Part shown: positions 1,921 to 52,596 of the stretch, in pieces | Position numbering within the stretch: the stretch's first letter is position 1 | How the letters are laid out: the number at the start of each line of letters is the position of its first letter | Assembly: GCA_031763025.1 (NCBI GenBank) | Contig: JASSKH010000017.1 | Coordinates: forward strand, 10,096,626 to 10,160,625 | Direction: 5' to 3' | Length of the DNA stretch: 64,000 nt | Source: Macrocystis pyrifera | Lineage: Eukaryota; Sar; Phaeophyceae; Laminariales; Laminariaceae | Position numbers and translations under genes: made by a program | Notes under the pieces: model-generated | The model's input: only the letters and a program-made list of their open reading frames with translations | Told to the model about the DNA's origin: nothing | Database searches by the model: none

Positions 1921-4900
1921 CTGGGCGACGCACGACAGTCGATTCACAGACAGACGTGCGTTTGCAAAGCGGAAAGAGGGGGTCACAGCACGGATGAAGA
2001 GCAAAGGTGTGACACTAATGTACGCCGCAGGAGCGGTGCGTGCTTTAGAAATTTGGTAGTACCGGAAGTCCGGGGATCGGCACAAAAAAAGAAAAAAGTT
2101 TAAAAGCCGACTTGAGCGGCATACACTGTTGTTTTCATATGTGATGGTACTGCTTCGAATGATGCAAAAAGGCCGGTAATTACCTGGTACTGGTGGTAGT
2201 GGGATTGTATTTGTAAGACTTGGGGGGCGTATCTTAGATGGAAACTAGGGGTTTCCTGCGAGGCACTCAGCCTCCTCTCAGCCCTCCATCGTGCTCGAAA
2301 GGAATAAAGCTTTTCATTTTCTGTCTCTTATTAATAGCAATCAATAGATGTGAATACCAACGAGTACCTGCTCAATAGTTACACCTGGCAAGGGATACAA
2401 AGTGCCTAAACTCGATCGTAGTACACATACCAGGTACCGGTAATATTTACCTCTTTCCTGTAGTTGCCATTACTGTTACTTGTACTATTGTTATTATGGT
2501 CTTAACACCTTAGCTCATCGCCAGGGTCTAGTCAGCGGTCACAAGACAGGCTGAAACCGTTCTGGACGGGAAGAACAAAGCAACCCCGAAAAACTAAAAA
2601 TGGAATATTCGGTGTTTAAACCAGATGCCACTCACTAACAAGCAACGACAAATATCGCGTACTTAAGTACATAAATAAAACCAAACATCGTAGATACACA
2701 AGTACGCATGTTTCACGACTTGGATAGGAAATAGATAGCAGATAGGAATCCTCACCCGGTCGCACGTAGGAGTTGACAGGGCTGAAAAGCTGCACTGCTT
2801 CGCAGAACTTCACCAACCTGTCCCGATCTCCGAGCTGCAAGGCCTGCACAATGTCCGTGCGCCCCCCCACCCCGCCACTCCTATCCCCCCCCCCGATGCC
2901 CCCTACGCCAGGCGTTGACCCTGCCCCTAATAAAATGTCAATTTCACTATCATCGGCACCCAGCGCGGCGGGGGGATGGATCGAAGGTGGCGGCGGATTG
3001 GTGGGGAGTCCAAAAGTACCGCCGAAGACCTCGGCCAATAGAAGCGCGCCTTTGAGGCTTTCCCCGACAATGGTTGGCGCTAGGAACAAGCCCTGCGTTG
3101 CCGAGGAGTCGGTTGAACGCGGCCACGGGAGTAAGGATGGGGTGGTGGGGACAAGCGGCGTTAGGGTGGAATAGTTCAATTAACCAGCCGGATGCTGCGA
3201 TTGCACATACGGCAGTAGCACTTTTGAGAAGTGCAGAGTGTTGTGTGCTCGCCGGCGCTGTTCATCTTCGTCCTTGGACCCGGTTTGGGTGGGCAAAAAT
3301 AAAAAATGCCTGTGATAAATCATATTTGTAAATTTCTGACGTGGCTTCTCTTGATGAGAAGTCGTCGACAACAAAAAAAAACAAACTGCTGCATGGAGTC
3401 AGCGGGCCCCCTTGATCTGCCTCCTCTTCTCCCCCTCTCCCCACGAAATGAAGCGACGGGTTACTTCCATCGCAAGAGACTTTTAACCCAAAAGGAGAAA
3501 AGAGATACTGTTCCAAGCACGATAGCAGGCGCAAAAACATGCAAGTACAGCATAACCTGAGAGCGAAGCTTTGATCAAGAATCGATCGGGCGACGGACAT
3601 CAACCTTAGCTAACGAAGCTTATTCAAGAATCGATCAACGAACGACAACAACCCGAAAAAACGAAGCTAAGTAGAAACAAACGATCGGGGAAGAACAAAA
3701 CCATTGAAAGCGAATATAGGAAGAAAACAAAAAAACGATCGGCGACGGACAAGCGAGTGACCCGCTTTCGCACCACTCCGACAGTCTCCCTTCGTCTACT
3801 TATGCCCATCCTCCCATTACGCTTGGTTCACTTAGAGGTAGGTAGTATCTGGCCGTAAATAGAATAACCCTTTGGCACACGATCTCAACATCAAAAAGTC
3901 ACTATATTTCCGGCCAGATGGGTACCTTTCGACCCTTTTTGGGGCTAGTCGAGGAAACATAGTCGAAAGTGGTTGACGACTGCAGCATCGGCAGCAAGAA
4001 ACAGTCCGGGCTGCTACGGTCGGAGACAAATTCGAAGTGCAACATGGTGAACACAGGGAGATAGATGTACGACAAGCGCGCAGCATGATCCTATATACCT
4101 GCACTACGGAGGTTCACAGCAATCATAACTAATTAGAACTAATCGGAACCCATGATGGACCCAAAACCCACTTGTTTCCCGTATGTTGACGAACGACAAT
4201 TAATTCCGATGACGATGCTCCCCCGCAGTGGACGGGTGCTAAGATCGCATTTCACTCTTTCAAGGTTTTGGAGGTCTCTTATCCTGGGTCCCGAAAGGCG
4301 CGATAATAACCCTTTTAAACCTATGTAGAACTGCACGGTACAGAAACATCAGTCTAATTTCAACTAATTCGTCCCCGAAACGGAAGTGCGATCCTAAACG
4401 GGTTAAAGCAGGGTTTGACGGTAAACAACCTGGAAACATACTCGGATCGTTTTGGCGTATGAAACAAAACTACGAATATTACAAAAAACAAACACTGGGA
4501 CAACCTCACACCCCGACACTCGGGTAGCTTTAAGGTGTCTGTTTGAGACTGAGGGACGAAAGTTACACCTCCTGCATACGGTGTCTGTTTGAGCCCGAGG
4601 GACGAAAATTGCACCTCCTGCATACGGTGTCTGTTTGAGCCCGACGGGGGAAATGTCAAAGTTTCACCTGATATAAGTTGGGGTTTTGCCCTAACGTCGC
4701 CCCTCCAGCCACCCCTGGCGCGGCGAGACGGTTCGCTGCCGCCCGTACCAAACGTTTCTTGCCCACGACATATCCGCCTTTTATCACAAAGAAAAACAGC
4801 GCGCGCAAGAAAAGCAGGTTGGTGGGCGAAGTTGGAGGCATGAACGCCAAAAACAATCGCTTGGCGAATTTGGAGGCGCGAAAGCCAAGAAAAATACAGT

Positions 4901-7900
4901 AGGTTGGCGAACTTGGAGGTGTGAATTGCAAGAAACGTATCGCAGATCGGCAGAATTGCAAGGCGTCAAGATTAAGAAGAAGAGGTTGTCGAGTTGGTAG
5001 GAGGCATGCGCGCCAAAATAATAGGTTGGAGGACTCCGAGGCGTGAACTTAAAAAAAACATGCTTCGGCGAACTCGGAGGCGTGAAAAAAAAAAAACCAG
5101 GTTGGAGCGTGAACGGCAACAAAAATAGATTGTCGAACTTGGAGACGTGCACGCCAAGAAAATTTTCAGCTGGTTGTCGAATTTGGAGACGTGAGTACCG
5201 AGAAAAACAGGCTGACCGAGTTGGAGGTGAACTCCGGGGGGAACCTGATGCCGCGGACAACGGGAAAAGGCGCGTCTGCGCTCCAGCATTCTACGTATTC
5301 CAAGCACATAGTCCCCAGAAGCAGCTGCAAACTCACAAATAATATTCTGCAAAATGTATGCCACACTCATTCCAAGTACTTTTCCCAAACAATGGAAAGT
5401 GCAGGCAGTTAGTTGTGAAGGGGTGAAGCGATTGTGCCCATTGTAGGTTTTCCTGGCCAACAATTACAATTTCCATCGAAACGTTTTCTAAATTGCAAAA
5501 ACAACGATTAGTCTGATCGAAAATATTAGGTAATTTTGTACATATCGTGGCCATCGAAATGTATCTCTTTTTTTCGATCAGACTGGTACAAACAAATGGT
5601 TCCTCACCGGACTTGACAACCGTCCCTCCGGGGCTTTTTGTGAGAGACCCCTTCGATGAGATCGTCCCCCACGGGACAAGGCCCCAAGCGACTTTCGCTC
5701 GTTTTCGGCTGTCTGGCAACGATTTCTATCAAAAAGCCTTCAAAATTGCACTTATTATTTGTCAGGAATGCCGTAAAAAGAGCGTTGAGTTGGGACAGGG
5801 GTGCGATCGTTTTCCAGCGCTATTGATAGTTTTCTCGACAACGGTAAGACCAATTATTACGGGAAAAAATTGAAGGGTTCTGGGCTTTCAGAACTGTTCT
5901 TCATTGCGGAAAACCCGCGATTTACTCGGCAGGACTGTCAAAAACACCGATACACTTCTCAAGACGGTCCCCCTATTTTTCGTACAGCTTTCTTGAGATG
6001 TTTTTCGTATCTCCAGTCGTAGTTGTTTACCTGTTTTTCTATATTGCCAGTTCTGAGGACATCACGATTTTTCACCAAAAATCTTGAAAAGATCCAGTTT
6101 ATTTCTGGCCCCAGTTCTGACAAACATTTTTTTTTACCCTCCAGAGAAACCTCATTGACTGCTCCAAATATCAAACGAAGACTCTGGAGAAAGGGAAAAC
6201 TGTACTCCGGGGAGCATTCTGAGGAGTCTAGCGGCATTTTTTCACTGTCCCGCCGAGTAAATCGCGTATATTCGGCGTAAAAACTCAGTTCCTGGAGCCC
6301 AGAAATAATTCCCCATGGTAGTTGGTCTAAAAGGGTGCTAAACGTCGAAGCACTTTATATTATTTCGGAAGGCTCTGGACCAGATCCTTCCGAAACACAA
6401 ACACCTCCCTTGTTTGGCATTGGCAATTTTTCCGTTCTGAAAAAATCGCCCGCTGAAAAAAAAAACGATCACGCACACCCCTGCGAAGGCGAGCTCAACG
6501 CTCGATACGGTACCTCTTGTATCCAGACGTTGTCAAAGCTACAGAAATTACCAGATCGTTTCTCACCGGACTTGACTACCGTCCCTCCGGGGTTCTTGAT
6601 GAGCGAACCCGCGACGAGATCTGCCCCCACGTGGCAAGGCTCCTGGTCTTCTACGAACTCGCCGTAGCAATTGTCAACGAACACCACCAAGTCGCGATCC
6701 GTCCAGCGACTCTTCACGTGCGAGCACAGTCTGGAGATCATTACCACGTCGGGTGCGTGCGGAAGGGAGACGAAGGATGGCACTCATTCTCGTGCATGGC
6801 CGTAGTCGTATGATCATAGACCCTAGCATCTCGACGAATGCCGGCACGGAGAACGCCCGGTTTGCACAGACCAGGCAGACATAAATGCACGAAGCGCGAA
6901 GCACCATGAGGTGTTCGGCGAGTCGCATGAAGGATGAGCGGGGGGTCAGGGTACTCATTGTCATGCATGGCCGTAGTCGTATGACCATACGACCCGGGGG
7001 GGGGGGGGGGGGGTACTCGATATCATGCATGGCATCGCATCCCTATATACATTGCCGGGACGGATCACGTCGGCTTTTCACCGGCGGCAGCTTGCACCAA
7101 GCCATGCGAAGCCCCGTGAGGTGTCAGTAAGTAGCATGAAGGGTGAGCTGCATCCTTCTAAGAATCGCTTGTGAGGCGGACTTGCGTATAGATGACAGCT
7201 TCAATGAGCTAATAAATAATTTTCGGCAGTAGCCACTTCCAGAGACAGCAATGGGGGTACTATATAACTGCCTCGTGGGTGCTTTACCATAAACATTTGA
7301 TACGGTTATTCCCTTTGTGCTGAGTAGAGGCTCTCCACCCCGCAAATTTATGATCTGACTCGATCGCCAGCTGTGACCGACCTCCAAAAAACAAAAGCAA
7401 GAAACGGTACTCTGGTCGTCTAAAGTATCTCACGTAGCGAGCGGCATGTTTTACAGTGTCGTTGCCAACCGACGGCAACCTCAACTTAATGTAGTGCATA
7501 GGGGCGGGGGTGAAGTTGAGGTCCCGACAACTTCATCTGACACCCTATGGTTTCATTTTTCTGTTAGGGTTCCACAGGGGGGGGGGGGGGGGGTGAGGGG
7601 GGAGCGAAGCAACAGCGTTGCGCCGTGTGGTCCCAACAGCTTCATCTCCCATCTATATCGTAGATTCAACTTTTCTGTTTATGGGGCGCTTAGCGCGTCC
7701 ATCGCCGGCAGTAACTGGTACCTGGTTTCTAACACCCGGAAGTAGATTTCATCGCCGGCGTTTATTTGGTTACGTGACAGCCGAATTTCTTTACTGTTCC
7801 CTGGAGGAATCATCGGCCGGGGGTTTCGCTTCCATTTGCTCCGTAGTGATTCGTCTATTCAGGATGCGCACCGTGGGGCCTGACCGGCCACCAATCAAAT

Positions 7901-10900
7901 GCTGCCGGATTTAAGCCTCATGCTCGGTGCAGTGGCTGGTCTCCCTGCGTCGGTTGTTCAATCCAGAAAGGCAGCGGTGGAGCCTCAAGCACCAACGTAC
8001 ATGGTGTTGGCGAATAGTGCGCACGTCGGACAGGTCGGACAGGTCACGATCCATCTGTAGAATATCTAGGACCTAGCCTGCCGTTACGATATACCAGGTA
8101 TCTTCTCCAGGATCCGAATACAGTACCGATTCAACCCAGAAAACCTGTCCCAGATCATGCAGATTACGCAGCTCCCACGCGGTAACATGAGCTAGATCAT
8201 ACAGATCATACAGATCATACAGATCAGGAAATTACCTGCCCCGAAAGATCTAGATCATGAAGTAGGAATGATCTGTCTGGTCTGTCCAAGGCGTGAAATA
8301 GTAGAGCGTGCGGAAGCCAAAACACGAAACGCCAATGTGCAGATGGTCGGAGTCGATGAGTAACGGTTTTCATGTGAAGAATGCATACAGATAGTCGGAG
8401 TAGATTATATGAACACATACCAGTACCCCTCGTACTAACTTATTTCAATTACTGTATTGCTTCTTTACACCGCGCCAAAAACAAGGTACTGTACCCCCTT
8501 TCGAGCTGGCTGAAGCCGATTCTACGACCGTCGACCGAGGTCTTCGAAAACAAAGAAACCATGATCGGCGTATTTTTGGTTCGACCCAGCACGGACGCAA
8601 GAGGACGACAGTTGGAAATGTCTAGCTGCACGAGTTCGTAGCGACCGCTATACCGTCTTTGGAACTACTTTCGATTTCTTGGAATAAACGGGACGGGCGA
8701 TATTGGTACGGCGTCCCCGGTGGCTCAGTAGGTGGTCTGCGCGCCTACTAATATCAATTTCGTGGGTTCAAGTCTCACCGAGTGCATACTCGTAAGGACT
8801 TTTTCTCGCATAAAAAAAAAATGATCAGCGGAAAGCGCGAAAGCGTGAGTTAGCTAGTTCGACGAAAATCGACGAGCTGTGGGAATGCTGAACCCTATAC
8901 GCGACAAAAAAAGAAAGGCTCGTACCGGGGGGGGAGAAGGGATGACACCTGTGACCGCGGCTTGTCCAGAAGAAGACCGCTGAGGGTAAAACCTCCTACG
9001 AGTTAAGCTGGAAAGTGAAAGTGATGATTAAAAGAAAAAAGAAGGTTATGTAAACACACATAATGGCTGGAGGTTTCTACTGTACCTCTCTATTTCTCCG
9101 ACTGAAAGGGACGGCCGCCATCGGTAGCCACAGGACCGTTGCACGTGGAGAAGCTTCACCGCCGGGTCCGCCTCGATCGCCTCGTCAATTGCTTCGAGAT
9201 TGAACCCGCCTTGCTGTCCAAGGTCAACCTTCTCGAAGCCGGGAAACACAATCGCAGACGAGGGCGACGACCACCGACGAGCTTCAACTTCGACCATTGT
9301 GAGAGGGTTTGAAGTAATGGAGTGAGATGGCGCAGGTACTCGGCACAGAAAATGCGCCATATGAAAGTCCACATCCCACCAATCCTTGCAGTCCAATGGT
9401 TTCTGCGTCACATCGTCACCGTTGACTGTCGATGGGTTGTCGTGAGAGGTCTCCGAGACGACTATTGCCCCCCCCCCCTCCTTCGCGTATACGGCCATGC
9501 ATGAACAGGAGTATGTACACCCCCCGTTCCGCAGCTGCGTGCCCACCTTTCGACGTTTGATAAGTTGATGGAAAAGTTCCGCCGATGGAAAAAAAAACCA
9601 CGCCACCCCGCCAACACACCAAAAAAGGGGGCGAACGGCAGTACGTGGTACGGCGGACGGCCGCTGAAACACCCGCCGTCCCCATGCCATCTAAAACAAC
9701 ACCACCTAGGACACGACACGGTACGAGTACCAACACACGACCTTGGAGAGCGAGCTATTCATAGGGCACATGCCGTCTAAAACAACACCATCTAGGACAC
9801 GACACGGTACGAGTACCAACACACGACCTTGGAGAGCGAGCTATTCATAGGGCACATGCCGTCTAAAACAACACCATCTAGGACACGACACGGTACGAGT
9901 ACCAACACACGACCTTGGAGAGCGAGCTATTCATAGGGCACCTGCCCCCCCTACATAACCTTAGAAGCGTGCTGCGTAAACCGTGCGCGCCCCTACGCCT
10001 ACCTCCGTGTAGGAAATGTTGAACTCCTTTAGGTTGCCGATTAGACCCTCCGGCAGCGGGTCGCTCTCGTCCGCGTACTCGTCCTGCGCGAGATCATGGC
10101 GGCATATATATATATATATATGTTAGCGTGGGTTGGTCGACGGACGTCCGTGGCTGATACCCACAATCAAACACTGCCTGTACACTTACGCTTCGGTTGC
10201 AAGCGACTCGAAAATGGTTTGGGATGGAACTGCTCCCACGCTTCAGACACAACCCGCAGTAGTTGACAGTGGAGTGGGGCCTTTTTGACTTCCAAACCTT
10301 CAGCAGATCACTCGGCATTCTCATGTGACGGAAGCGTAGAACCGCCACCAGCAAAAAAAAAACTGGCTGGCATCCCCTGCGGCGTATGAGTACGGTACCA
10401 CTACTACGGACGTATACACGCTTCTCTGCTTACGATGCAACAGTAGTGAACCTCGGCCCTACCCTTCCGCTCGCCAGGAATCCCCTGCAGAACTGGCTGG
10501 CATCCTCGTGGGCGCATGAATGCGTACGAACTGATCCATTTCGTATATTCAGGAACGAATTGAAAATACACATCAGTCATGAGATCGAAGATATCTTCGA
10601 AACTTTGTTTTTGCAAGCTGCGTGCGCCATCTTGATGTGCAGTTCTGCTTGTGGCGCAACAATATCGACGCTCGGGCACAGCCTCGACCTTCTCGCTCGC
10701 CCGGAGACTCACCGTCATCGGTGCTCGGGTGCCGATGACCTCGTCGAGAGTGTCGTACGGCGGACCGCTGCACGCCAGCATGGTGTCGCCCGGTCTGAGG
10801 GCGCCGAAGAGGGCGCACGCGATGGCGTGCGTCCCGCTGAAGCACTGCACTCTCACCTGCGCGACCAACCCCGAAAAAAGAAACGTAAAAAATGTATACT

Positions 10901-21485: not shown

Positions 21486-36401
<14,916 letters not shown>

Positions 36402-41929: not shown

Positions 41930-42013
41930 ATGGACGACGTGGAAGAGGAGCTTTGGAACATCTTCACCTTCTACACGCTTCGGGGAGGGCCTTCGGATTT
42001 GACCAGGCTGTCT
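41930..42013 (+). CDS. p25-like exon 1
   Basis: ATG at 41930, MDDVEEELWNIFTFYTLR, ending at TCT before GTGAGT (42014), phase 0. The frame is open further upstream but without family similarity, so this Met is preferred. Exon, donor and following intron start are repeated in part 265 bp downstream. Confidence 0.75.
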
Positions 42014-45000
42014 GTGAGTGCCAGTAGTGATTGTGCCACTGACTGTACAGCACTTGAAAATGTATAAAAAAGACATGCATTACGTGCTGTAGTCTAATGT
42101 AGATATTTATTTTGGGCTTGGTGTTCTCATTCATACGTACATTATATCATACATTCATGGTACTATATGCCTCTGCGATCAATGGATCCTTGCATCTGTA
42201 CACATGATGGCCACGTGGTTCTCTGATATCGCCCGGAGGAGATACTCGTCTACGAGTCGGTCCTATCATAAGACATGCGTGAGTGCCAGTAGTGATTGCG
42301 CCACTGACTGTACAGCATTTGAAAAGGTATAAAAAACACATACATGCATTGCGTGCTGTAGTCTAAAAAACAATGTAGATATTTATTTTGTGCTCGGTGT
42401 TTTCGTTCATACGTATCATTATATCATACATTCATGGTGCTATATGCCTCTGCGATCAATGGATCCTTGCAACCGTACACATGATGGCCACGTGGTTCTC
42501 TGATATCGCCCGGAGAAGATGCTCGTCTGCGAGTCGGTCCTATCATAAGACATGCGGAGCTGGTCCTGCAGTAGCAGGATGTATGCTGCTGTGTTTCCCC
42601 CAGCACCGAGTATGATCTTTTTCACGCACTGTTACCGCCAGTGAAACCCTACAGAACCCGCACTGCTGTACCAGGTACATGTTGTAGTGTCGGTCGGACT
42701 GACTGAACTACTGCTGTGGCCGAGCATACATATTGATATGATTGCTGTACGCCAAGTGATCTGCCATTATTACGTACCGTAAAAAATGTTGCGGTCGCAT
42801 CACAAGCCAAGAGCTCGATGCTATCTTAACTGGCACATGGACAGCACTGCCGCATCTCCAAGCTCGCGGCAAATAACCCCCACACGAAATCGCCCGACGG
42901 AAGTACTCCTCGTATTTCTTCGTAATATAATTTGTCTGGCCCTCCTGGTCGTTGAACAGGTCACGCAATTTTTACGCCTGGCGAGGGATTGTCAGATCGT
43001 CGATGACTGCCAGATCGTCAGTGCAGGTCAAGGTTGCGTCGTCGTGGACAGAGGATTGCATGGCCGACCTCCGGGGAACGCAGCCCGTCGACCCAAGCGG
43101 TTCGTGAAGCGCAGTCTAGGACAGGCGACGGTGAACCTCGCGTTTGCCTCCGTCGTCCAGAGGCGTACCAAGGTGCCGACACAACGCTAGCCTAGTAAAT
43201 AGTAATAAGGATGTTCACGGCTTGATCGTGTGCCGATCACGTCAATCACTGTTTGTCCGACAGGGTACTTTAGCCACCTCTCTTCTCTCTCCTCTCTATG
43301 GAAGACCAGAGACCTTTTCGGCTTGTCGGCTTGCCGCAGTCGTTATTTGCGGCAAGTCACGCAGCCACGCGCGCACGCGTCTCGGAAGACTGCAGCAGTA
43401 GTAGTCACGCGACACAGCAGTTAGTATCTCCTGTTTAAGCTACTAATAGTAAGGCTCCCGGCTTATTGTGATGTCAACGTTGAGCATAGGTTCTGATTAA
43501 AGGCTATAATACTGCCCATACCAGCTAAACCTGGTACCCGGTAGTATTTAGAGAGGCTATCCACACTGAGCACAAATATTTAGCTGTTAAATCTTGAACA
43601 AATAAAAAGTCAGCATGAAATTCTTAACTCCCAGATTATTAACACGGTGTCGCGTACTGCTGTACTACGAAGATATTCAGGTCCCGTGGCAACACGGAAG
43701 AACGGAAGGAATATATAGGGAATAACGTATAATGTTTATCTGCCCAAGTATGTCACCACCCAACCAAGCAATGGGCACTGCTGTATCCTTCCCTTTTGGT
43801 GTTAATAGTCAGTTTTTCTCTTGCATGTCCCACAAGGTCAATATCAATAGAGCTCGAATTTAGAGTTGCTGCGTACGATTTTCTACAGGAATACTGCTGC
43901 ACTCGATATATCAGAAGCAGAGGCGGACGGCTTCTTCTACGGCTTACGCAGCCCCCAGCTACTTACTGTCATCGAAACACTGAGATTCGCTCCGCCTAGA
44001 TTGCGCGCAGAAAGCGTTTCAAGCCCTCAAAAATAAAACCGTTTCCATTTTATATCCGTATTTTAATTCAGCAAAGCTGAGCCTCATGTAGCAACCAGCG
44101 AGCGCTTGCGCGGCCAACGTTTTTTTGTTCACGTGCCTAGGTCACGCCGGAAACCGGCTGCGGCCGAAACGCCAAGAGGCAACCTCGACACCCGGCAGTA
44201 CCCAGCGAGCGCGCCACTTTAACGAGCAAACTCAACTATCCCGAGTTTCTCGATGCCCTTTTGATTTTGGGCAAGCGCATGTACAGCGGGAAGGTCCCTA
44301 AGGTTTTGAAGCTCTCCGCACAGAAGACTGCGGCAGCGGGAAGCCGGCACCGCGGCCGGAGCGTTGAGTCCATGTTCCAGCAGGTGGGTGCTGGAGTTCC
44401 ACTGTTGTTGTCCTGGAAGGCTCGTAAATACCCAGGGATAGGAATAAGATAAAAACGTGGCGTGTTGTTTTGAAGGGCCTGCACGTTTAGGGGAAGCGGG
44501 CAGGCAACTGTGGACGAAGCGTTGAGTTCATGTTTCGGCAGGTTGCTGCTGGAGTTGTGCTACTATAAGTTATTGCCCCTGGAAGGCCTGTAAAGGTCCA
44601 GCATTTAGCCCTTGTTACCTCTGCAAAAATGACCCCACACTAATCCCAAGTAGTTTTCTCCCAAAAACGTGGGTGCAGTTCTGCACAAGTGTCAAGGGAA
44701 AAAAGATGGCGTACTTCTTGAAAGGCCTATACGTGTAGGGAAACAGAGGTCATGGACGGGGCGAGAGCCGACTCACTCCTTCTCCAACTACATCCGCCCG
44801 CAGTAGATAGTAGCTTAGGGGTCTAACATCGTAACAGCACCAGTAAGAAGGGGCGGGGGAAGCTGTGGACAGGAATTGACGGGAATTTCGTTAGATTAGC
44901 AGAAGGTGATTCCGTGTTTTCCCATTGCAGCGCCAAGATAATCTTCGCTGAATTGGGGAGGCTGTTCCAAGAGCTACTGTTGTAGAGTCGTGCCGACAAA

Positions 45001-48000
45001 CCACTTGAAAATAATGACGCCAGGGCAATTCCCCAGCTCGTTCGCGCCAAAAGCCAGAAGTTTTACGGTGTGTCGCTTCTCTGCGAAAGGCTCGTCAAGT
45101 GCTTCTTCTACTGCTCTGTTGGAGTAGAAAGCGTCCTCAACATGTGCTATTTGTTGTTCGGAGGTGTCCTGGTACCGAGGTGTTTCCTTTGAGCTAAAGC
45201 CAAGACCTGCAAGAACGGCCTTGAATGCGCATGCTCAAGAACTGCGGCGAAAAGTTCACGCATCGGATACCATCGATTGACTCCCACTTCATGATCTAGA
45301 TCATTCCAGGCAAATAGATTCCTGATTTGTGAGATACGAAGTATAGCTCATGTTAAATCTGCATGATCAGGTACTTGAGTACGTGTACAGATCCTGCACA
45401 GCACCTCATAACGGCAGGTGAGGATCTGCACTATCTACATTGTCGACAGTAGATCGTGATATATCCTACTGTATACATAAGTGTGGAAAGATTGGTAGGG
45501 TGGGGCGAAAGCTAATGGGGTGGGCGGAGAAAGACGCGCGATTCACAGCGATGCAAAGGGTGCTGGCCACTTCCTATTTGCTAGATAAAGGACAACTGTC
45601 GCTTTTCTTCGACGTCAAGGACTTTTTACGAGTAATTATTCGGTCGAAACATGCGTACGGGGGGTTGTAATGTACGGCGACGGAGCTATTTATAAATGCA
45701 TATCGTCGAGCACGAGGCCAAACCTTGACCAGAAATAATAACTTTAGGGACTGCTAAGACTTTCGTTAGACACCAAGTCCGGAGGTGTCCGGTCGGTTTC
45801 GATCGGCGTCAATTCCACTCATGAGTGTCGGATAGAGCCTGTCGGACGAGTTCCTTTAGGAAGTCTCTCCACTACTAACTCTTCATCCATTTTCGGGGAT
45901 CGAATTTCAGATCCGCGGATGATTCTAAACAAAACGCAACTTCCACACACCCAAAACAAAGAGATGAACGCATCTTCCTGTACCGATGTGCAGTATACCA
46001 ACGACCCGGCGTGCCGTAGGCAGGTTTTTGAGCCGACATGAAAACTGGCTCGGCTTGTTTTTCGGATTCTCACCGAAAAGAGGGTCGGTTTCGGCCGCTT
46101 TTTTTCAAGCAAACCGACACCGAAAAAAAACTGAGAGAAAAACAAGAAAAACACGAAAATGTCGGGGTTAGTTTCGGTCGTTTTTTAGCAAATAAATCGA
46201 GAAAAAAAGCATGTTTTCGGTCGGGCAAAACCGAAAAAAAACGACCGAAAAAACCGACTTTCAGTTTTCGGTTCACAACCCTGTCTATAGGATACTGAGC
46301 GATCGGCACGTGTGTTTGCGCCAAAAAACAAGTGAGAGAGTTTTGACAGTTCTCCCTCCTGCTTGTACAGAGGATCCTCACCTTTCGCCTCTCTTTCGCC
46401 TGTGCTCACTGCGTGTGGGTTGTTTCCATTTCATTTATAGTATTCGCCCGTATTTTCTCTCTCCCTTTCATGTAATAGCCGTAACTCAGATCCGGGGTCA
46501 CATGGCAGGCTCGTATCCTCCCTGCCTACTATGGTTCGTGCCTTGCATTTTCATCGTGAGAATACTTTAGCTCTTTGTTCCCTCGTCGACTGGTATCGAA
46601 TCTAGCGTACCCACACTAAGCGCTCTCAACAGTTGGTTCCTTATATATATATATATATATATATTTCCAAATACATTCACAATCTCACTACGGTGGGAGT
46701 CGAACTCCAGGATCAACGCTTGAGTAGTAGCATTCGAGAGTAACCAACAGACCACCGGGGTAATCGGGCGTATTGTGTACTACTGTATACGGAGGGGGAA
46801 ATGCTCTGTATATCTTTCTACACTCCACTCGTACTTGGTTACCGCAAGAGAGCGTACACGCAGCCACTCATATACTGCATATATTCCATGCATGATATCG
46901 AGTGCACCCCCTCCCCCCCCCTCTCTCCACATCTTTTTGCCCATCGATCATACACACGTCACAGCTACTGATGGAGAACATCCTGCCTTTAGCATCACGT
47001 CGACGGCCGGTTTCAGTGTCAGCTGCGATGCACGACCCTCTGGTTCGAGATCTGTTGCGGCACTACAAGCCCGCGCTGAGAGAAATGTTCAGGTGCAACA
47101 GCTTTCACGCGGGCCACGCTGACGAAGGGTGTGATCACCTTGTCCTATAGTATAGTAGATGGGATCACGTTGTATAATCATCCAACGAACAAGCGGTGGT
47201 GTAGCAATAGCAATGACGAGCGGGGCAAGGGGCTTACTTATACGGCCGCCTAAAGTATACCAGATATCATAGGACAAGCCTTAACAGGGCACGCCTTAAT
47301 TGTGGGCTAGGTAACAAAACTGGACATCCGTGCCACCCGACCGAGAATCTCCGATTTTTTTCGATGCCTTCCACCAGTCCACCAGCGCGCACGGTTGGCC
47401 ATGGTTGACGACAGTTTTAGCTATCAGCGTGAGTTTCTGGTGAAAGGTCACCTTATGCTCCAAATTGAATACCTGTAAGTTTAATTCCCGTGTGTTTCAT
47501 TGTGTCTGACACAGCACTTTTCGGGGTGCGGTATGGTGACTCACGCTCCTGGTATATACTCGGAAAGGCGTCCGTTGTAAAAATATAAGCCTCATCTCCC
47601 AAAATATGTACCGTCATCTGCGGAACCGTGTGTGTGCAGATTCTACGCAGCGTCTCCCTCCGCCGTGGTCACCAAGCATCCGTCTCACAGGGGCAGCAGC
47701 GGCAGCGTTGGCGAAGGTACCGCTACACAATCGGCGAAGGTCGGGGACGTAAAACAGGTTGTCCAGCCGCCGGCCCACGAATATCTTCGAGCTACTGTTA
47801 ATAACAATATCCCGCCGGCCCAGCATTCGACCCAGTCTGCGAACGCTCACGATACCCCCCCCGTGCCCGAATCTGCCTTGGAGACCGGTGATGCTGTACC
47901 TTCCATATCTGTGGAAGGGAAAGCCTGCGACGCCGACGGGGATTCCGATGAAGACTGTACCTTTGGAGGTGCTGTCCACGGTGCTGTCGACCCCCTCACC

Positions 48001-51000
48001 GCGACCCCACCGCCAGCTGCAGCAGCAGCAGTAGGCTGTGAAGCCGATACTTTTGATGATGATGATAATACCGCCAACCCCGTCACTGCGACCACACCAC
48101 CAGCTACGCCGCCAGCATCAGCACCAGGTGCAGCTTCAGCTTCAGCAGCAGCAGCAGCAGCAGCAGCAGCTTCTGTACTGACTGATTCCATCCCGCGACG
48201 GACATCCTCGCCCTTTCCCAGCCCAACCACTTCGCTTCTTCCAGTAAGCAGCAGCAGCGTCGGCGAATACGTCGAAGATCGAAAAGCCGCACCCCCAGTA
48301 TCAGCATCATCTGGGGGTGACGGTGAATACCGAAAACAACCACCAGCAACAACATTGTCGCGGGGTGGTGGCGGCGAAGAACCCCGCAAAACCCCACCAG
48401 CATCAGCATTGTCGGAGGTAGATAGCGAAGGCCAAAACACTCCACCTGCGTCAGTAGTACCATCAACACCACCAGCGTTGCCAGAGGGTGGTGACGAAGA
48501 GCGAAACTCGCCAGCACCATCAGCACTGTTGGGGGATGCTGTCGAAGAGGACAAAACAATCCCGCCAGTCTCAGCGTTATCGAGGGTGGATAGCGATTTC
48601 CACAACCTGGCACCATCTGCGTTGCCGAGGGGGGGTGGCGAAGACCGAAACAATCCACCAGCAACAGGTTTATCGGGGGGCGACACGGGCGGCATAGGTG
48701 ACAGCGCGAGCGACATTACTGGGAGCGGCAGCGGCGGCAGCGGCAGGGTACCGAGCCCAGCGTCTGCGCGGTCGTCACTTCTGTCTGCGCGATCGTCGGC
48801 GACGATAAACTCCATGGCCGAGGCGCTCTCGCACAGGTCGCTGTTGTGCTTTGCGGCAGACCTTGGCGTTTTAGGATCGCTGCTGTCAGCTCTGGATGTC
48901 GGCGAGGTTTTCCTCTCCTGCAACGGTGGGTCTTATGGTTATGGTGGGTCGTATTTTATACCTGTTACCTGGTAGACTTTAGAAGTGTCGTCAAGTTTTC
49001 GGGGACAAACGACTACGGATTGTTATCGTAGTAGGCAGCGAACTGCATAAATAAGTTCATTGTAGTCCACTAAAAAAAGTACCAGTTAGATTCACACTAA
49101 ATCGTCATTTAATTATTTGCCTTCTCCACGAGTACGTGTGGTGCAGCGCTCACCGTGAGGTCTTTATCCATACATGCTCTCAATCAGTCTCTATCATTAT
49201 GTTAATGGTACCCAATGAGCGCGACATCGCTGCGTTTAGAGCTCTAGATCGAGGCGGAATATAGAACAACACTGGCGTATGATACCCATGCACCTAATAT
49301 AGCTTTCGTCTGTTCTGATAGATACAAAAATCTCGAGCTTATGCCCCCCCACCGACGCTGCGACGGTCCCGCCGCACACACAGCTTATGTGGAAGTCTTA
49401 AAATTTGTGGCACGGTTTACTTATAGCAGTCGTTGCTGTTGTTCTAACATTAGCTTGTCGCGTACTTCTGCATGGCTCAACTGACATTTCGTTCTTTAGC
49501 CGGCATCCGTCATTGATCCCATCAACAACTCCTCCTGAGAAAGAAAGTGCACTTTTCCGCGTTACTAACTACTTGCCGTCTGCCCCCCCCCCTCCCGTCC
49601 TGTTGTATTCATGCCGGCGCTTGTCTGGGAGAGGGAAGTCTATCGTACGCGCGGTTTTTCACTCAGTAAATGTTTCCCCTTGATATGTACATGCGCTTGA
49701 ACGTGAGGTGGGGGAGAAGAAAGCAACCCGCTCCAGTTTTTAGGACACTATTATGATTGTCATCCAATAATTTGTAAAGAGCATGAGCTTCAACGTTGAT
49801 CACTCATAAACATCCCCAGAAAATAAGAAAGCCCAGGGAATCTTGAACAAAAAACGAAAGTAAGCCTATGCACGTATTACATCATACAGTACGTAGTCGA
49901 ACTCCATTCGGCACCTACTTCCGACCTAACTCTTTAGACTACTGAAAAACTCAACCCACAATGATTGAAAAATTTGTGTTTCCAAAATTGTGTGTGCAGT
50001 TCTAAAGTAGAAGACATCGATCACTATCGCGTGTAATTTCCGTTGGCAGGACCGAACGCACCGGATGCGGGCGCCGATGCCGCGAACAGGGCGAAGACGG
50101 GCGGGCCGAGTCATGGAGACTTCGCCCGAACTTGTCTTGCTAGAGCCGGAAAGGGAGCCGTTAGGCCTCTCCGGTTTGCGGAGTTTTTAGAGGTGAGGGC
50201 GCCGGCGCGCGTTGTTTGGTTAAAACACCGATCGTCTGAAAAACGAGGGATTTTTCAAGCTTGAAAACTATGAAAATATTTCTGAAACCGTTCGTTGGGC
50301 TGTGAACACCGTGGTTTCAGGAAGGACAGCTATTGGTGACTGCTACTATAAGTCGGTGGCAATGGTTCAGCGTCTGGTCTATATCACTCCCTCGTCGCGG
50401 AACTGCACGACGGAAATAGTTTGAGTGTCCGGACTCCTGCTGCTGCTGCGTGTCGCTGGTACACATTTTGTCTCGTTGACGGTCTAATTTATGTCAGTTG
50501 TCGCAGACGCAGTCAGCGTTCGACGGTCCACCTTAGCACGCGACAAGGGTTCCAAACTTCGACCCGAGGGCTACTTTGATTAGTTTTTGGCCATGCTATG
50601 GCCGGGAGGGGAGGGGGGGAGGCACTCAAGTTGGCTGTAGTCGTATGGAGGAGGGGGTACTCATGTCATGTAGGGCCGTAGTCGTATGACGAGGGGGCAC
50701 GTTTTGGGCCCGACTTTTTGTGACTGACGGGGCTCGTAACCTGTCAATACTCAAGTGTTGTAATGCTCTTCTCACGAGCAACCCGATACCTTCGCAACCC
50801 CATCGATGTTTTTATTGAACACATGCGTCGCCATGGAAGATGATTTGTTCATCGGGGTGCGCGTATGTACTTGCTCCTCAAAGGCGCCTTTGGGGCTTCG
50901 TATGTGTTGAGAATCTCTACCGTCGCGTGAGTCCGAAATATTCAGTGCCTTGCATCGGGCGTTCGTGTGTGCTTTGCAGGAAACATCGTTGGGTTGGCCG

Positions 51001-52596
51001 GCGCTGTATGCCCCCCTCCCCCTACATTTTCACATGCTTCGAATTGACCGCCTCCCCTTCTCTCTTTGGGGGCTCACTGTTCCTCACGAAAGCAAAATAT
51101 CGAAACGTCAAAATCTCGAAATATCGAATATTAAAATATCGGAATATCGAAGAATCGAAATAACAAAATACCGAGTTATCTTATCATATATCAAATAAGC
51201 TATCAAAACATCGCAATATTGGTCCAGGCCCTGGTGAGAATCTCGCTGATGTGTTTCCGTCCGAGAGACGATGGTAGTGTGGCGGAGACCAAAGGAGGTG
51301 ACGGTGACTTCATTGGCCCCGGGCATTGCTTGCGTGCGCTTTTGACGTACATGTGGAGGAGGGTGCACGCGTCGGCAGAGTTAGCTCTCAACGGCGTTCG
51401 CGAGGGGGGCGCGCGACATCGATCGAGTATTCAAAAGGTGAGACAGCACATGGTATGACGACGGTACGATGAGAAGTTACTGTCGGCGACTAGTGTCGCT
51501 CGGGATTTTGCACGGGGTGTTATGGGAAGCGCTGTAGATATAGGCCAAGGAAGATGGATCATTGCAAGAGGACTGGCTCGAGTAAAATTGGAACAGGCTA
51601 CGTAGCCATCGATCTCCACGAGGTTGTTTTGCGACGACTTCACGCGAACATGAGCCGCGGCAAGGTTTACGGCCACGTCCTCACCACCGCCTAACAAATA
51701 TTAATTGTATTTTGAAGACGAAAACTAGCGGGCCAACAGGACAGATATATACGTCCTGCTCGAAGCATCTACTCCGAGCCTAGGGTATACGGGGTGGCGT
51801 GGGGCTCTACCCACCTCGACGGATGATCTTTCCTTTCGAGAACAAGCGACAAAGGCGGGCTCAAATTAAATAGGTTATGGACCGCCAACTCTCCCTTGAA
51901 AATCGTCCTGTTGATCCTGCTATACGAACAACATCTCTAGGGGAGTGGGCCACCGACCTATACATTCTTCGCGTACGAGGAACTAAAGTTTACTATTAAT
52001 AGGCATGGCCGAAGTTACCACGCAGCTTGTAAACGTGAGTTTCGACTAATCAATCAAGCGAGCTCACACAACTGGCGTGTTTGAAAAATATGTACGTGCT
52101 AAAAACACAGAACCTCCCCCTCCCCCCCCCCCGCGTCCTTCCCGCCCGCCCGGTGCAAACCATATTGAACGCCCTGTTCGATCCCCCGAAGGGAGCGCTG
52201 ATGAAGGGCGTGCAGCTCTTCAACAAACGCATGCTCTCCCGTTGGAGGACCGAGGGTTTCCTGGACTTTGCAACAACCGGCCCCGCGTCTGCCGCCGCCG
52301 CCCCGGGCGCTCCTCCTGTCACTGCTGGTAGCATCCCCAGAGAAGGGCAAGCCGTAGAAATTCTACGGAAGCTGTTAGCTCGTAGCGAGGAATGCCTAGC
52401 CGAACCAGAAGTAATAGTAGCTGGGTCAACTGAAGTAAGCGAAATCAGCCTCGATCGGCGCTTGGACGGGGATTATAGCAGATGTGGTGGTGGTGGTGGT
52501 GGTGTTGGTGGTGATAGGGAGAGTGCGCAAGGTAGTCTTGGGGTGCAGCAGACAGCGGCAGTGCCATGGACGATGCCAGGCCCGCTGACAGTCTAG
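41930..52596 (+). CDS. Protein with two p25-alpha/TPPP-like helical modules (8-exon gene span)
   Basis: Eight exons join in phase into 909 codons. Residues ~1-145 read like the p25-alpha (TPPP) fold: LWNIFTFYTL, QFLRLARDCQIV (compare the KLCKDCK helix), VNLAFASVVQR (compare VDIVFSKV) and LNYPEFLDALLILGKRMY (compare the ...EFxxALxxLAxKR end helix). After a bridge (LLMENILPLASRR) a second module starts, HDPLVRDLLRHYKPALREMF, is interrupted by ~370 disordered residues, and resumes with LLCFAADLGVLGSLLSALDV, FARTCLARAGKGAV and FAEFLEALVRISLMCF. The C-terminal ~160 residues are partly helical (ALFDPPKGALMKGVQLFNKR) then Gly-rich. No canonical EF-hand loop is visible. p25-alpha proteins bind tubulin or cilia, so a cytoskeletal role is inferred; exact function is unknown. 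Confidence 0.82.
42014..42556. repeat. 265-bp tandem duplication carrying the intron 1 donor
   Basis: GTGAGTGCCAGTAGTGATTG occurs at 42014 and again at 42279. The units are near-identical through TGGCCACGTGGTTCTCTGAT and CCTATCATAAGACATGCG. The second GTGAGT is a duplicated splice donor without an exon before it. Confidence 0.93.
42960..43164 (+). CDS. p25-like exon 2
   Basis: Acceptor GTTGAACAG. Encodes VTQFLRLARDCQIVDDCQIV, a basic linker and LGQATVNLAFASVVQR. The donor GTACCA at 43165 (phase 1) fits the next exon. A nearby GTGCCG donor would not keep phase. Confidence 0.75.
43165..44198. other. p25-like intron 2
   Basis: No embedded gene is recognised. The stretch is AT-rich in its middle and contains one ACCTGGTACC word near 43530. 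Confidence 0.4.
44199..44383 (+). CDS. p25-like exon 3
   Basis: Acceptor CCCGGCAG; TA completes a Leu codon. Encodes LNYPEFLDALLILGKRMYSG, the last helix of module 1, then a Lys/Arg-rich stretch and RSVESMFQQ. Donor GTGGGT, phase 0. Its 3' end is duplicated at 44513-44605. Confidence 0.85.
44513..44605 (+). pseudogene. Decayed duplicate of the 3' edge of p25-like exon 3 and its intron start
   Basis: Matches 44355-44440 through GCGTTGAGT.CATGTT.C and the GGTGCTGGAGTT.. / CCTGGAAGGC blocks downstream of the donor. The original VESMFQQ reading frame is lost. A further weaker unit follows at about 44690-44800. Confidence 0.75.
45285..45460. repeat. Element G copy
   Basis: CATGATCTAGATCATTCCAG, GATTTGTGAGATACG, TAACGGCAGGTGAGGATCTG; reverse to the 8030 copy. 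Confidence 0.75.
46020..46285. repeat. Simple ACCGAAAAA / TTTTTCGGT-rich inverted stretch
   Basis: Words such as CACCGAAAAG, TTTCGGTCG, ACCGAAAAAA and TTTTCGGTT alternate on both strands over about 260 bp and could fold back. In p25-like intron 3. Confidence 0.7.
46641..46770 (-). repeat. Second tRNA-like unit (minus strand)
   Basis: The reverse complement reads CCCCGGTGGTCTGTTGGTTAC, then about 35 nt later GGAGTTCGACTCCCACCG and TAGTGAGATTG, ending at an AT run at 46644-46664. The order and the CCCCGGTGG start recall the unit at 8711. Stems do not form a proper cloverleaf, so this is not a tRNA gene. Confidence 0.4.
46965..47092 (+). CDS. p25-like exon 4
   Basis: Acceptor CGTCACAG after a C/T-rich tract. 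Encodes LLMENILPLASRR and HDPLVRDLLRHYKPALREMF, the bridge and first helix of module 2. Ends AG before GTGCAA, phase 2. Confidence 0.88.
47093..47639. other. p25-like intron 4
   Basis: No repeats of the families above and no coding signal were seen. Confidence 0.4.
47640..48925 (+). CDS. p25-like exon 5: large disordered insert with degenerate Pro/Ser/Glu repeats
   Basis: Acceptor TGTGTGCAG; A completes Arg, giving REMFR|FYAAS. Then come about 370 residues rich in Ala, Pro, Ser and Gly: an acidic DDDD patch, an 8-9 Ala run, and around residues 405-552 about eight degenerate copies of a PPxSALxxGxxEExK-type repeat of about 18 residues. Helix sequence returns at ALSHRSLLCFAADLGVLG. Ends AAC G before GTGGGT, phase 1. 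A long minus-strand open frame here (47847-48923) is its shadow. Confidence 0.88.
48926..50049. other. p25-like intron 5
   Basis: No gene or recognised repeat apart from one ACCTGGTAG word at about 48967. Confidence 0.4.
50050..50192 (+). CDS. p25-like exon 6
   Basis: Acceptor GTTGGCAG; GA completes Gly. Encodes HGDFARTCLARAGKGAVRPL then RFAEFLE, helices of module 2. Donor GTGAGG, phase 0. Confidence 0.82.
50580..50700 (+). repeat. Element P fragments
   Basis: GTACTCATGTCATGTAGGGC and CGTAGTCGTATGACGAGGGG, with a partial copy just upstream (GGCTGTAGTCGTATGGAGG). In p25-like intron 6. Confidence 0.75.
51228..51437 (+). CDS. p25-like exon 7
   Basis: Acceptor TTGGTCCAG. Encodes ALVRISLMCFRPRDDGS, then CLRALLTYMWRRVHASAEL. 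Ends CAA AAG before GTGAGA, phase 0. The preceding ~100 bp is an AATATCG-rich AT stretch. Confidence 0.8.
52111..52596 (+). CDS. p25-like exon 8 (C-terminus, stop)
   Basis: Acceptor AACACAG before a C tract. Encodes VQTILNALFDPPKGALMKGV, MLSRWRTEGFLDFA, an Ala/Pro linker, AVEILRKLLARSEECLAEPE and a Gly run. TAG at 52594-52596. Two short C tracts at the exon start could hide small length errors. Confidence 0.75.
   Translation, partial: NLPLPPPRVLPARPVQTILNALFDPPKGALMKGVQLFNKRMLSRWRTEGFLDFATTGPASAAAAPGAPPVTAGSIPREGQAVEILRKLLARSEECLAEPEVIVAGSTEVSEISLDRRLDGDYSRCGGGGGGVGGDRESAQGSLGVQQTAAVPWTMPGPLTV

Follow-up and report, generated by a model that had tools for sequence, protein, structure and literature searches.

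What kind of protein is encoded by the eight exons at 41930-52596 on the forward strand of a 64,000-nucleotide stretch of the giant kelp Macrocystis pyrifera genome (contig JASSKH010000017.1; the whole stretch is called the window), and is its layout a new one? An earlier interpretation made from the letters without database searches, here called the sequence-only reading, had described a large protein with two p25-alpha-like modules, the second split by a repetitive domain. Our analysis points to a nuclear gene whose TPPP-like product would have two short (truncated) p25-alpha modules in tandem and would be associated with flagellar microtubules, an explanation that we hold with moderate confidence. 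The predicted protein is well supported as kin of the p25-alpha superfamily, with more than one candidate for its nearest branch.

Module 1 (about residues 1-150) is itself interrupted by two inserts, at residues 45-78 (34 amino acids, 43008-43109) and 100-125 (26 amino acids). With both inserts cut, the remaining 90 residues matched PF05517 at an E-value of 3e-5 (24.7 bits, against a curated cut-off of 22.6), and all five PDB matches at E up to 10 were TPPPs (best E 0.0023). Local alignment of the uncut residues 1-160 with TPPP3 under free gap extension gave a score that none of 1000 shuffles reached. Module 1 can be assigned to p25-alpha with good confidence, as had been proposed for the first ~145 residues.

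Module 2 spans residues 204-711 and is split after helix 1 by an insert of 386 amino acids (residues 229-614), with a further loop of 34 amino acids at residues 653-686. It was compared by hhalign with a TPPP profile of four rows, from which module 1 was left out. With the insert and the 34-residue loop cut, module 2 aligned with this profile from helix 1 to helix 4 over 64 columns (probability 76%, score 30.7); none of 150 shuffles reached this score (shuffle maximum 18.6), and twelve shuffled module-2 sequences, each represented by the best of 20 random trims, reached at most 15.5. Other parts of the protein gave hhalign probabilities of 0.1-1.4%. In local alignment with TPPP3, the score of trimmed module 2 was reached by 0 of 2000 shuffles, and by 37 of 2000 when the loop was kept; with free gap extension, the scores of residues 605-780 and 200-780 were reached by 10 and 15 of 1000 shuffles, respectively, the latter alignment partly crossing the insert.

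Global alignment of the two modules lined up their helices at 26% identity. A two-row profile of both modules found six PDB sequences at E up to 10, comprising five TPPP chains (6.3e-7 to 1.9e-5) and Chlamydomonas FAP216 (7.4e-5). The TPPP match improved from E 0.0023 with module 1 alone to 6e-7 once module 2 was added. This gain supports module 2 independently of any TPPP profile, although the first figure comes from a single-sequence search and the second from a profile search. The same genome contains a canonical short TPPP gene (C140:304500-314400, with exons at about 2911-3343, 4808-5095 and 7509-7733 of that stretch), and the module 2 intron after AEFLE agrees in place and phase with the predicted kelp TPPP intron after DAFRK, if the TPPP junctions are read correctly. 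No EF-hand calcium loop of the DxDxDG type was found in the window protein, and calmodulin lobes used as single-sequence hhalign queries matched neither module (probability 0.9-2.2%). Module 2 thus appears p25-alpha-like at the level of profile resemblance, and the second, more diverged copy of the sequence-only reading is recovered in trimmed form, without a Pfam match of its own.

FAP216 (739 amino acids) was aligned through a second two-module profile, in which module 2 was extended and module 1 shortened so that the FAP216 alignment would print. At E up to 10, this profile matched 18 PDB sequences. FAP216 ranked first (2.3e-5), ahead of five TPPPs, and the other 12 matches, all at E 0.65 or worse, were four peroxiredoxins, seven leptins and one flagellar protein of 2520 amino acids. 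The aligned FAP216 stretches were residues 87-169 (15.8 bits), residues 259-327 (5.4 bits) and a third, chance-like one (1.9 bits); by eye, the first is in register with helices 1-4 and the second with helices 2-4. As an observation on FAP216 itself, the chain (PDB 7n6g chain 3C) may hold two p25-alpha-like modules at 87-169 and 259-327, the second match being very weak. We take 7n6g and 7sqc to be central-apparatus structures. The fap216 mutants are described as losing small parts of C1c and C1e and beating at lower frequency (PMC8175508); FAP216 was reported to be down to 0.07% in a Chlamydomonas FAP81 mutant, and its mammalian orthologues were not found (PMC7642295).

The long insert of module 2 (47656-48813) lies in the loop between helices 1 and 2. 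It is rich in A, S, P, G and T (counted over residues 222-617) and acidic, with a net charge of -26 over residues 236-600; its composition suggests that it is disordered. The insert contains the following array:

48289-48699, forward strand: nine degenerate repeats of about 16 amino acids, of the PP/AP-x-[ST]-[AV]-L type, at residues 440-576.

The units are spaced by 16, 18, 16, 9, 14, 17, 15 and 16 residues. The best autocorrelation lag of the insert was 16, matched by 1 of 1000 shuffles, and the motif count of nine compares with a maximum of three in 2000 shuffles, the motif and its anchors having been picked by eye from the same sequence. Where the sequence-only reading had seen ~370 residues with about eight PPxSAL-type repeats splitting the second copy, the split and the repeats stand, and the figures become 386 residues and nine units, just two of which carry a strict PPxSAL.

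The 3-base periodicity of exon 5, which encodes this insert, was the highest of the gene (20.3). It was at most 2.7 in 39 overlapping control windows (38 over 41930-46900, mostly intron but including exons 1-3, and one at 48930), and at most 2.1 in a second control of 62 windows at 34.4-40.6 kb. Successive parts of the insert gave 4.5, 18.3, 8.4 and, in the final 226 bases, 2.0; the value of 18.3, like the 20.3 of the whole exon, derives partly from a CAG run near 48113-48170, and 48200-48700 alone gave 8.4. One forward frame of exon 5 is free of stops over 1286 bases. Given the periodicity in most of the insert and the lack of a stop in the coding frame, the insert is probably coding.

The exon joins are based on splice signals, reading frame and homology. 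The eight exons join through seven introns, all GT-AG and with agreeing phases, into an open frame of 930 amino acids, so that the eight phase-consistent exons proposed earlier were rebuilt and the gene model is, on its sequence, intact. The exons are as follows:

41930-42013, forward strand: exon 1, residues 1-28, with the start codon and module 1 helix 1, and an in-frame GT-AG join; the ATG is the first in-frame one downstream of a stop.
42960-43172, forward strand: exon 2, residues 29-99, with module 1 helices 2 and 3 and the 34-residue insert.
44141-44383, forward strand: exon 3, residues 100-180, with the 26-residue insert (100-125) at its N-terminal end, module 1 helix 4 (KLNYPEFLDAL) and then linker.
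46965-47092, forward strand: exon 4, residues 181-223, with linker and module 2 helix 1 (LREMF).
47640-48925, forward strand: exon 5, residues 223-652, with the end of module 2 helix 1, the 386-residue insert and module 2 helices 2-3.
50050-50192, forward strand: exon 6, residues 652-699, with the 34-residue loop and then the start of module 2 helix 4 (PLRFAEFLE).
51228-51437, forward strand: exon 7, residues 700-769, with the end of module 2 helix 4 (ALVRISLMCF, to residue 711) and the region after it.
52111-52596, forward strand: exon 8, residues 770-930, the C-terminal region.

The length of 908 amino acids given earlier differs from this model by 22 residues, a gap that can be about explained by splice choice, since the alternative in-frame acceptor of exon 3 at 44210 would drop 23 of the 26 insert residues. 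Exon 7 requires the acceptor at 51228, which joins EFLE to ALVRISLMCF; an acceptor at 51295 was rejected, as it yields stops. Among the boundaries of the model, the exon 8 acceptor has the lowest certainty, and the open frame of this exon matched no Pfam family at E up to 0.01. The 3-base periodicity of the seven exons other than exon 5 is weak (0.65-3.0, with the minimum in exon 7). Within exon 2, 29 in-frame GT-AG pairs were identified, 21 of which spare both flanking helices; one of them, 43017-43109, would excise most of the insert at residues 45-78, which could be a small unrecognised intron.

Intron 1 starts with a two-copy tandem duplication at 42014-42555 (265 and 277 bases, 90% identical), the unit of which begins exactly at the 5' splice site GTGAGT. 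A mobile intron element was considered and rejected: among the genome matches listed, the repeat occurs only here, twice in tandem, and it was therefore taken as a local duplication.

Several results weigh against a protein built of two p25-alpha modules. The whole protein and the uncut residues 1-180 matched no Pfam family at E up to 10, and whole or untrimmed sequences gave no PDB match. The cut in module 1 was placed by eye, guided by the expected p25-alpha fold, which also steered the trimming of module 2. Against the TPPP profile, uncut residues 1-147 were marginal (probability 2.4%; score 17.7, with 150 shuffles reaching at most 17.3), and module 2 scored 18.0 with the 34-residue loop kept (probability 3.1%, shuffle maximum 16.9) and 18.6 as encoded (probability 1.2%); these three untrimmed scores are little higher than the 16.5 of a C-terminal control. 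The score of module 1 with the kelp's own TPPP (31) was equalled in 60 of 2000 shuffles. Module 2 alone matched no Pfam family at E up to 10, whether fully cut or with the loop kept, did not reach the PF05517 score, and gave no PDB match. Direct similarity between the modules is weak, their local alignment being reached by 69 of 2000 shuffles when trimmed and by 248 of 2000 when untrimmed. The results on module 2 would suit an explanation in which module 1 alone is p25-alpha and the second region is an unrelated helical one or a generic EF-hand-like pair. We consider this very unlikely: trimmed module 2 reached its 76% with no shuffle and none of the randomly trimmed controls near it, its presence in the query sharpens the TPPP matches and does not dilute them (single-sequence against two-row profile search), its intron place is common to the kelp TPPP, and calmodulin lobes do not match. 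No more credence than this is given to the idea that the long insert is untranslated, in which case part of exon 5 would be an intron and splicing would leave a compact double p25-alpha protein of the ordinary kind. Exon 5 holds six in-frame pairs of the GTGA/GTAA/GTGC/GTGG..YAG type separated by 900 bases or more, the insert is of low complexity, and a different splice choice could remove or shorten either insert of module 1 as well; however, codon periodicity extends across most of the insert with its final 226 bases excepted, the coding frame is stop-free, and the peptide repeats are in frame.

It is possible, if somewhat unlikely, that the window gene is the kelp orthologue of FAP216, which belongs to the C1c/C1e projections in the central apparatus of cilia, and not a general double TPPP. 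FAP216 is the sole non-TPPP protein at E below 0.001 with both two-module profiles, its two stretches occur in order and about 90 residues apart (about 80 in the window protein without the 386-residue insert), and its reported lack of a mammalian orthologue (PMC7642295) would fit a protist and algal distribution. Trimmed module 1, however, is nearer to human TPPP3 (pairwise score 84) than to the first FAP216 stretch (48); untrimmed, it scored 50 with that stretch and 42 with TPPP3. Module 2 is likewise nearer to the kelp TPPP (56) and TPPP3 (54) than to the FAP216 stretches, and shows no preference for the second of these, scoring slightly higher with the first (47) than with the second (42). 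The second stretch by itself is very weak (5.4 bits, i-Evalue 270), and the trimmed two-module protein, used as a single PDB query, did not find FAP216 at E up to 10 and returned TPPPs and one unrelated capsid protein (E 0.39). These last points on FAP216 also count against the explanation that we prefer, in which the double short layout would be shared with FAP216.

A search of the kelp's own genome, an assembly of 223 contigs with 537,376,219 bases, scored 11 candidates. Of the nine matches listed, eight were the exons of this gene; the ninth (E 5.4) was rejected as a paralogue, being on inspection a chance open frame. No second copy was found among the matches listed. With PF05517 at E up to 0.001 over the assembly, the canonical TPPP gene described above was the sole match listed; since the window gene itself escapes this search, there may be other relatives split by inserts. 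Short peptide patterns matched 9, 26 and 26 stretches in collections of viral and prokaryote genomes; no relative was identified in these stretches, as expected of a eukaryotic gene.

Elsewhere in the window, exons of a sugar transporter were observed at about 24163-34197 on the forward strand, Sugar_tr being matched by three of nine frames compared with Pfam, and an open frame at 9046-9690 on the reverse strand showed a methionine gamma-lyase type match (PF06838, E 1e-8). A long triplet repeat array with several open frames (poly-V, poly-T, poly-S and poly-L) lies at about 31294-31690. Scans of the window with Rfam at gathering thresholds and for tRNA genes found nothing.

Kelps have flagellated spores and sperm, and a double short TPPP of this kind would be a microtubule-associated protein in the flagella of kelp zoospores and sperm. 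This flagellar reading draws on the correlation between p25-alpha proteins and flagella (TPPP presence is described as tracking flagella, PMC12731214), on the location of FAP265, a Chlamydomonas TPPP, in flagella and at basal bodies (PMC5607191), and on FAP216. As a best guess, the protein would serve in the cytoskeleton or cilia of a stramenopile, and the suggestion of cell-wall trafficking in the sequence-only reading gained no support from anything found. Each EF-hand-like helical module would contact tubulin or adjacent axonemal proteins, and the tandem modules would bridge two sites. The long insert would form a disordered loop between helices 1 and 2, grown by repeat expansion with the fold left intact, and may act as a spacer or a proline-directed phosphorylation site, or be nearly neutral. 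The double short layout would apparently be common to Chlamydomonas FAP216, a tie that we infer from sequence. An unlikely extension is that brown algae have kept a central-apparatus protein of the FAP216 type and that, in kelp, a long acidic loop of phospho-acceptor repeats interrupts its module 2 between helices 1 and 2. This loop would reach out from the C1 projection and give the heterokont axoneme a regulatory or spacer element specific to the lineage.

With these results, an unlabelled kelp gene becomes a concrete flagellar candidate, and it is seen that a profile library can miss p25-alpha modules split by inserts. They also suggest that a single family may include both FAP216 and the double short TPPPs. 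If translated, the repeat loop that splits module 2 would be a tidy illustration of how much insertion a small fold can accept.

Proteins with two p25-alpha modules have been described. The "double short" TPPPs, with two short modules, are reported from a quick BLAST mainly in stramenopiles, alveolates (ciliates, myzozoans) and chlorophytes (Orosz 2025, PMC12731214), and green algae are listed with duplicate short modules (Orosz 2012, PMC3498115); the Ectocarpus and Phytophthora proteins of the class in that paper have one incomplete module, at times plus a fragment. The function of two-module proteins is called unknown, with tubulin binding expected (Orosz 2023, PMC10304595). Given the double short TPPPs, the green algal duplicates and the two stretches of FAP216, the claim that no described protein has such a layout cannot be kept. 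The sequence-only reading is confirmed in what it observed and partly supported in its interpretation, which is right in kind and overstated in its novelty. What seems new is the repeat-rich loop in module 2, plausibly a lineage-specific expansion; no repeat insert within a module is described in the sections consulted of these three papers on two-module TPPPs (PMC12731214, PMC3498115, PMC10304595).

Compared by description only, the window protein would share with the double short TPPPs a pair of short p25-alpha modules and the lack of the conserved C-terminal part, and differs in having inserts in both modules, with the repeat-rich one of 386 residues in module 2. Module 1 with its inserts cut reaches the PF05517 score and module 2 corresponds at profile level only; at E up to 10, Pfam gave no further domain. 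The mark of long-type TPPPs, GxGxGxxGR in the conserved C-terminal part of the p25-alpha domain, was not found there in the window protein, and a short-type TPPP is expected to be without it (PMC12731214). The one match to this pattern (GSGSGGSGR) lies in the Gly/Ser run of the long insert, not after a module, and was taken as low-complexity chance. Of the canonical short TPPP stretch, RF.D..T.TG and RFHD are absent from the window protein, where a lone YSG was observed.

The kelp TPPP on C140 has in common with the window gene the p25-alpha helical core and one intron at the matching place in module 2, whereas it consists of a single module followed by the C-terminal stretch RFHDDKTTYTG, which the window protein is without. 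Chlamydomonas FAP265 likewise shares the helical core. FAP216 resembles the window protein in its two p25-alpha-like stretches in order, and differs in its low similarity and in having no comparably long insert in the aligned stretches. Set among these systems, the window protein stands as a diverged representative of a class already known, and its loop is unusual.

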